Shown here: positions 25,593 through 26,262 of the stretch, one piece after another
How the letters are laid out: the number at the start of each line of letters is the position of its first letter
Position numbering within the stretch: position 1 is the stretch's first letter
Source of the DNA: a bacterium
Lineage (GTDB): Bacteria; Vulcanimicrobiota; JABDET01
Direction of reading: 5' to 3'
DNA: 64,000 nt
Assembly (NCBI GenBank): GCA_021800275.1
Contig: JAJYZB010000003.1
Span: 188,680 to 252,679 of the forward strand
Notes under the pieces: generated by a model
Database searches by the model: none
Seen by the model: the letters and a program-made list of their open reading frames with translations, nothing else
Told to the model about the DNA's origin: nothing
Made by a program: the position numbers and the translations under genes

Positions 25593-25652
25593 AAAAACTT
25601 TCCATTCAAAAAAAATAATTTGAAAATTTTTGAAAAAATTTATTAAAATTGC

Positions 25653-25681
25653 TTGATTTTTTTTTAAAAAAATGTTATGAT
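25653..25681 (+). promoter_or_regulatory. Promoter of the lysine-rich micro-gene
   Basis: TTGATT (25653-25658) and TATGAT (25676-25681) are spaced by 17 nt within a very A/T-rich tract that resembles an UP element. Transcription would begin near 25688, 35 nt before the micro-gene ATG. Confidence 0.65.
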
Positions 25682-25722
25682 ACAATTACAATCGAAGAAT
25701 GAAATTGAAAGGTGGTGACAGG

Positions 25723-25767
25723 ATGGCAGCCAAGAAGGCTAAAGCAAAATCCAAGAAGAAGAAGTAA
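25723..25767 (+). CDS. 14-residue lysine/alanine-rich micro-protein
   Basis: The ORF reads MAAKKAKAKSKKKK and stop. Despite its size it has every signal of a gene: a -35/-10 pair with 17-nt spacing, AAAGGTGG about 8 nt before the ATG, and a strong intrinsic terminator 24 nt after the stop, making a transcript of roughly 130 nt. The peptide is almost purely Lys and Ala, like the tails of bacterial histone H1-like proteins or the smallest basic ribosomal proteins, so nucleic-acid binding is the natural guess. A small RNA with a fortuitous ORF is the alternative. Confidence 0.6.
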   Translation: MAAKKAKAKSKKKK

Positions 25768-25790
25768 GTTATCGCAAGTTTTAGTTTTCA

Positions 25791-25818
25791 CCGAGGCTTC
25801 AAGCCTCGGTTTTTTTTT
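25791..25818 (+). terminator. Strong intrinsic terminator of the micro-gene
   Basis: CCGAGGC-TTCAA-GCCTCGG (25791-25809) forms a 7-bp G+C-rich stem, extendable by T-A pairs, followed by nine T (25810-25818). It is the best rho-independent terminator in the window. Confidence 0.92.
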
Positions 25819-25863: not shown

Positions 25864-26262
25864 ATGGAAACGATTTATTTGAAAATCCCTAAAGACCCTC
25901 AATTTATGTTGGCTGTTCGTCTCCTCGCCGCCGGAATCGGCAATGTTTATTCCTTCAATTCAGAAGATATTGAAGACTTAAAAGTTGCTGTCTCTGAAGC
26001 CTGTTTTTGCAGTCCTGAGGAAGGAACTCCTTCTATCGAGTTGACCTTCTTTCTGGAGGATGGACAAATGACTGTTGAGGTAAAAGGTTCCGCTTCGGGA
26101 AGAAAACCTGTTTTAACTCTTGGCAAGCCTTCTCAAGAAAGCATAGGATTTCTATTAATGCAAAACTTAATGAACTCTCTAGAATTCAAGAAAGACGAAA
26201 CATGCAGCTTGATTCGAATGACGAAAAAAGCTAAAACTCCTATGCAGTCAGGAAAACCATGA
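25864..26262 (+). CDS. RsbW-like anti-sigma/ATPase-fold protein, degenerate N box
   Basis: The 132-residue protein fits the HATPase_c_2 fold of RsbW/SpoIIAB: DIEDLKVAVSEAC in the N-box helix and SIGFLLMQNLMNSLEF in place of the G boxes. The catalytic Asn that holds Mg-ATP in this helix is absent (the sequence is SEACFCSP), so kinase activity is doubtful and it may act as a binding module only. No STAS-domain antagonist or sigma factor is adjacent. It overlaps the lipoprotein gene by ATGA. Confidence 0.72.
   Translation: METIYLKIPKDPQFMLAVRLLAAGIGNVYSFNSEDIEDLKVAVSEACFCSPEEGTPSIELTFFLEDGQMTVEVKGSASGRKPVLTLGKPSQESIGFLLMQNLMNSLEFKKDETCSLIRMTKKAKTPMQSGKP

Follow-up and report, generated by a model that had tools for sequence, protein, structure and literature searches.

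The closest described counterparts of the locus analyzed here are proteins with lysine- and alanine-rich sequences that resemble histone H1. AlgP has an H1-like KPAA C-terminal tail, binds DNA, and organizes and spaces polyphosphate granules (PMC9239181). Chlamydial Hc2 varies in length by the number of in-frame lysine-rich repeats (PMC2848022). The HC2/HctB proteins (PF07382) share with the class of small genes considered below their Lys/Ala/Thr/Pro repeats and a lack of acidic residues, and with the Nitrospirota members of that class also length variation by repeat number.

The window, a 64-kb stretch of DNA from a 2.46-Mb genome that is 98% complete, holds a far smaller gene of similar composition. 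A preliminary description had proposed that 166 nt of this DNA (25653-25818, forward strand) contain a promoter, a ribosome site, an open reading frame (ORF) encoding only Met, Ala, Lys and Ser, and a terminator, and that the product resembles a histone H1-type tail. All of these elements are present, in the case of the promoter as a promoter-like site, and the composition bears out the comparison: the 14-residue peptide, MAAKKAKAKSKKKK, consists of 8 Lys, 4 Ala, 1 Ser and 1 Met, with no acidic or aromatic residues, and is thus Lys/Ala-rich, of low complexity and acid-free, as the HC2-type proteins are. Hc2 measures 165-237 aa, whereas the window peptide, at 14 aa, lies under the 20-residue minimum of our profile search, and its likeness to these proteins is one of composition. 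It also resembles the disordered, Lys/Ala-rich H1-like C-terminal domains of AlgP (AlgR3) and PhaF, but these are joined to a domain at the N-terminal side, whereas the product of the window gene would be a free micro-peptide.

Anatomy and conservation of the window cassette

Table 1. Features of the micro-gene cassette and of the gene that follows it, in window coordinates
Feature	Position	Strand	Basis
Promoter-like site TTGATT-17-TATGAT, TG directly 5' of the -10	25653-25681	+	9/12 matches; conservation
Ribosome site AAAGGTGGTGA	25708-25718	+	Duplex energy with 16S rRNA 3' end
14-codon ORF plus TAA, MAAKKAKAKSKKKK	25723-25767	+	Frame kept in relatives; AAG excess
Intrinsic terminator (9-pair stem, 3-nt loop, T run)	25790-25818 (stem 25790-25810)	+	Conserved in G001
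Tentative long-range pairing, by prediction, between the leader/ribosome site and the 3' untranslated region, around the ORF	25700-25789	+	z-scores
RsbW-like HATPase_c_2 kinase gene (neighbor, outside the cassette)	25864-26262	+	Downstream in all three family members

We compared the cassette among three genomes of one family: the window genome (G000), a member of the same genus (G001) and a member of another genus (G002). Both relatives carry the cassette at the corresponding position, which makes only three genomes in all that have it there. In G001 it is 88% identical over 178 bases; none of the 45 nt of the ORF differ (100% identity), whereas the flanks are 64-90% identical. The more distant G002 keeps the layout, the ribosome site and the 14-codon length, encodes the peptide MAAKKAKKSKKKKK, and has a terminator at the same place that differs in sequence. 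The most parsimonious alignment of the MAAKKAKAKSKKKK and MAAKKAKKSKKKKK ORFs, made by eye, can be explained by two indels of one whole codon each together with five synonymous changes, all at third positions; an ungapped MAFFT alignment calls for more changes, and the frame is still open. The ORF length is thus 14 codons in all three genomes, and codon-sized indels appear only in the most parsimonious alignment. The RsbW-like gene is the downstream neighbor throughout, whereas the upstream neighbor is FmdB in G000 and G001 and another zinc-ribbon protein in G002. In the next relative, G003, the end of a zinc-ribbon protein gene directly adjoins the RsbW-like gene, and the micro-gene is absent from this junction.

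The preliminary description had proposed to look in relatives for the same ORF with its promoter and terminator, and the frame is conserved in both of them. The outcome that it had named as refuting, an RNA kept while the frame is lost, was not seen: the G002 frame is open over 14 codons of the same composition. Its view that this is a gene which ORF callers miss is likewise supported.

The 401-base region around the cassette contains seven promoter-like sites, and because this DNA is AT-rich and offers other such matches nearby, the promoter hexamers alone are weak evidence. The putative promoter is assigned mainly by its conservation: G001 matches the block 25646-25685 at 90% identity, compared with 76% for the upstream flank, and a block of similar kind is present in G002. 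The ribosome site forms a predicted duplex of -13.2 kcal/mol with the canonical 16S rRNA 3' end, is equally strong in G001 and G002, and is equalled or exceeded by only 2 of the 52 window ORFs of at least 150 aa. The signals predict strong translation, in support of the high expression that the preliminary description had anticipated from them.

An ORF of this kind is not expected by chance. We scanned both strands for ORFs of 8-40 codons with at least 50% Lys and otherwise composed only of M, A, K, S, T, P, G, V and R, and the window ORF was the sole match in the 64 kb. First-order Markov sequences yielded 0.02 such ORFs per 64 kb, and K-rich ORFs with a ribosome site numbered 0.00 in 100 first-order Markov runs with the same dinucleotide make-up. 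By the patterns used, the window genome contains no further copies, and the gene is the only one of its kind there.

The codons themselves also appear to be constrained. After ATG, the ORF reads GCA GCC, AAG AAG, GCT, AAA, GCA, AAA and TCC, and closes with four AAG codons and TAA. AAG thus accounts for 6 of 8 Lys codons, compared with 17% across the window ORFs (p=5e-4). Between G000 and G001, none of the 13 non-start codons is synonymously changed; in the RsbW-like gene of the same two genomes, 19 of 38 conserved K/A/S/E/Q codons are, and at that rate the absence of change in the micro-gene has a chance of about 1e-4. The synonymous freeze and the AAG excess together suggest that codon choice or a feature of the RNA is under constraint, in addition to the amino acids that are encoded.

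Lysine-rich micro-genes in other lineages

To describe a wider class, we used a pattern consisting of a ribosome-site core, MA(A/T)KK, and KK before a stop within about 20 codons. It matched nine places in eight of 149 genomes of the Eremiobacterota phylum, and the reversed pattern matched none in the same 149 genomes. With the stop left out, it matched in another two Eremiobacterota families, where the K-rich micro-ORFs have 13-30 codons and several of them are followed by a clear hairpin. Their neighbors, named by eye from the sequences, are an ABC-transporter gene in one family; in the other they are an XdhC-like gene and, in convergent orientation, a gene for an RsbU-type phosphatase.

Over 84,980 species, each represented by one genome, the pattern matched 104 stretches; among the 80 of these that were listed, most hold a free-standing micro-ORF that is in frame and has 9-20 codons. 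Bacterial sources among the matches listed include Nitrospirota, Methylomirabilota, Rokubacteria, Eremiobacterota, deltaproteobacterial lineages, Acidobacteria, Verrucomicrobia, Eisenbacteria, Chloroflexi, Elusimicrobia and Levyibacteriota. Judged from the record titles, the pattern scan thus places the class in about ten bacterial phyla and in DPANN archaea. Free-standing micro-genes similar to the window gene encode 9-30 aa, and tandem copies occur at eight loci (L074, L081, L082, L085, L096, L106, L118 and L124). No family for the short peptides was found in Pfam and NCBIfam, and a search of the open-access literature for the peptide motif or for lysine-rich microproteins returned nothing; within that literature, the class is apparently undescribed so far. 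Sequence evidence supports well that the window gene is translated and that it is a member of the micro-gene class.

Several individual matches deserve mention. DPANN archaeal ORFs (L075, L076, L083, L095, L109, L122, L129 and L135) have 9-12 codons, for example MAAKKKKKK, and a GGTGA ribosome-site core; the archaeal ORFs are shorter than the bacterial ones and are putative members of the class, assigned to it by pattern match. On the minus strand of locus L273 (genome G035) there are three tandem micro-ORFs, one of which alternates His and Lys (MAAKRKHKHKHKHKSRGKHKGK). In a viral collection, only three contigs (L284-L286) match the micro-gene pattern. At three loci of another Eremiobacterota family (L253, L255 and L258), the micro-gene faces an apparent RsbU-type phosphatase gene, and the window micro-gene precedes an RsbW-like kinase gene. 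RsbW-like kinases and RsbU-type phosphatases both belong to partner-switching stress pathways; the recurrence may be a coincidence.

An anchored locus in Nitrospirota

In Nitrospirota, the micro-gene is almost always preceded (L178-L242) by a gene for a winged-helix (wHTH) nucleotidyltransferase-like protein, as it also is at two Methylomirabilota loci (L074 and L081). We used this upstream gene as an anchor, choosing loci by it alone and making no use of the micro-gene pattern. The anchor protein search matched 68 of 198 Nitrospirota genomes; we read the DNA downstream of 70 anchor hits and parsed the anchor gene in 67. An ATG-started K-rich ORF follows in 59 of the 67. Of the remaining eight loci, six show a K-rich ORF with an apparent TTG or GTG start and L244 shows a long H1-like stretch, whereas the last shows neither, such that 66 of the 67 anchored loci carry a K-rich ORF. 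The distance from anchor to ORF is either 32-140 nt or about 490-560 nt, and the ORF is often present in two or three copies. At L081, a HEPN gene stands between the anchor and the micro-gene; pairs of HEPN and nucleotidyltransferase genes are typical of toxin-antitoxin modules. The wHTH-nucleotidyltransferase is a possible regulator of H1-like AK-peptide genes.

The Nitrospirota ORFs at this locus range from 13 aa (MAAKKKAAKKKKK) to 116 aa, with clear changes of length by whole repeat units and with composition kept; the micro-genes thus grade into H1-like proteins of 50-116 aa. We compared 17 pairs of Nitrospirota ORFs, paired through the similarity of the DNA upstream. Differences within the ORF fall 23/4/82 on codon positions 1/2/3, a third-position share of 82/109 (binomial p=4e-19). 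The underlying nucleotide alignments are of repetitive DNA, and 11 of their 28 ORF gaps have a length divisible by three, so that the gap evidence is weak; the substitution evidence is strong.

The statistics cover 80 anchored genes, for whose selection no ribosome site was required. Their median 16S pairing energy is -16.9 kcal/mol, compared with -5.0 for other ORFs at the same loci, and AAG makes up 0.73 of their Lys codons, compared with 0.51. Their A-runs are shorter than in 1000 of 1000 within-gene shuffles of Lys codons, which fits selection against poly-A slippage. The pooled composition of the class is 51% K, 29% A, 8% T and 3% P, with acidic and aromatic residues absent. Against the Pfam HC2 profile (cut-off 40), a 108-aa Nitrospirota member scores 46.7 bits; members of 116 and 68 aa score below the cut-off (35.8 and 18.2), and those of 27, 54 and 74 aa give no hit, nor does a 20-aa Eremiobacterota counterpart. 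These results establish coding constraint, a range of lengths and an affiliation with H1-like proteins for the Nitrospirota counterparts.

The window gene shares one trait of these loci, being a free-standing MA(A/T)KK.. ORF with an extended ribosome site, but not the other: it adjoins FmdB and the RsbW-like gene rather than a wHTH-nucleotidyltransferase gene, for which no match was found in G000, G001 or G002. Given the low complexity of the sequences and the different neighborhood, the window gene and the Nitrospirota genes could be of convergent origin, and it is quite possible that lysine-rich micro-genes arose convergently in several lineages. For the window gene, the class-wide statistics would therefore be support by analogy only; the evidence from the gene itself consists of its anatomy, the chance estimate, its conservation in three genomes and its codon choice.

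Possible roles of the window peptide

Together, these observations lead us to favor, as the probable explanation, a real coding micro-gene, independently transcribed and terminated, that would supply a free and probably abundant 14-residue polycation for the neutralization or condensation of DNA, RNA or polyphosphate. The disordered peptide would bind nucleic acid or polyphosphate by charge neutralization and, once bound, would help to compact or organize the nucleoid or polyphosphate; its dose would be set by the very strong ribosome site and not by length. Among polyanion partners, we would place DNA first, followed by polyphosphate or RNA. The abundance, partner and physiological role of the peptide are what we infer here, and a 14-mer of charge +8 should have a much lower affinity than a tail of 100 residues. 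We also think it probable that the window peptide is the smallest version of a type of protein whose longer representatives are the Lys/Ala-rich H1-like proteins of the HC2 type and H1-like tails.

Very short, highly basic and strongly expressed peptides of fixed length and with defined binding sites are also found on the ribosome, as in bTHX and eL41. The window peptide is similarly tiny and basic, and the very strong ribosome sites would fit production on a ribosomal scale. It could be a micro-peptide that associates with the ribosome or binds RNA, and not a factor of the nucleoid or of polyphosphate. We regard this as unlikely: the related Nitrospirota ORFs vary from 13 to 116 aa at a single locus, occur as tandem copies and have no conserved positions other than Lys and Ala, whereas bTHX and eL41 are fixed in length and binding site, and both the likeness to H1 in composition and the match to HC2 speak for another role. 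The longer H1-like versions at the Nitrospirota locus would be in keeping with an origin of the window gene by decay from such a gene, but this explanation, like that of a chance ORF, is left with a negligible probability by the retention of promoter, ribosome site, ORF and terminator across two genera, by 100 random windows that yielded no such ORF behind a ribosome site, and by the recurrence of similar lengths across lineages.

Two further readings place the function in the RNA. With its own promoter-like site and terminator, the transcript would be about 130 nt long, as for a small regulatory RNA with an incidental ORF, and the lack of synonymous change between G000 and G001 would suit such an RNA. 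So would the predicted long-range pairing of the leader with the 3' stretch, which coexists with the terminator and has z-scores of -2.2 (G000), -2.8 (G001) and -2.8 (G002, with other pairs). However, across the class the mean z for the ORF region is about 0 (69 and 111 class members against shuffles), and we reject RNA structure as the property conserved across the class; longer flanks do give negative z, as expected from terminators. The weak Rfam match to alphaproteobacterial ar9 (RF02343; E=0.005) scores 28.5, far under the gathering score of 45, with the terminator as its well-matched part; a match to ncS16, also below its gathering score, is likewise driven by the terminator. As the frame is, moreover, open and K/A-rich in another genus, and codon-position periodicity is strong in the Nitrospirota counterparts, a non-coding RNA seems very improbable, although the window gene may be a dual-function RNA. 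Even less credible is a leader peptide for the RsbW-like gene, in which the behavior of ribosomes on the Lys codons would set read-through of the terminator. A short ORF rich in one residue is indeed followed by a terminator and then by a gene that is kept downstream in all three family genomes, but 22 nt separate the stop codon from the terminator stem and none of the predicted pairings would displace that stem, and we reject attenuation on this unfit geometry. The downstream gene is, besides, an RsbW-like kinase rather than a lysine gene, and in other lineages the next gene is different or convergent and the micro-genes stand in tandem.

The free polycation that we favor for the window may have a wider counterpart. 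We propose tentatively, at somewhat less than even odds, that H1-tail-like micro-genes of 9-30 codons, with near-maximal ribosome sites, signals of their own and often tandem copies, form a widespread, unannotated class of prokaryotic polycations across many bacterial phyla and DPANN archaea, whose peptides would serve DNA, RNA or polyphosphate as counter-ions or as condensing agents, at a dose governed by initiation rate and copy number and not by length. The usual minimum gene length in annotation is near 30 codons, and micro-genes are therefore left out of most catalogues. If the class is real, gene catalogues would lack peptides that are among the most heavily translated in these cells, and the Nitrospirota locus, with its 13-116 aa, would offer a natural length series for the shortest working H1-like polycation.
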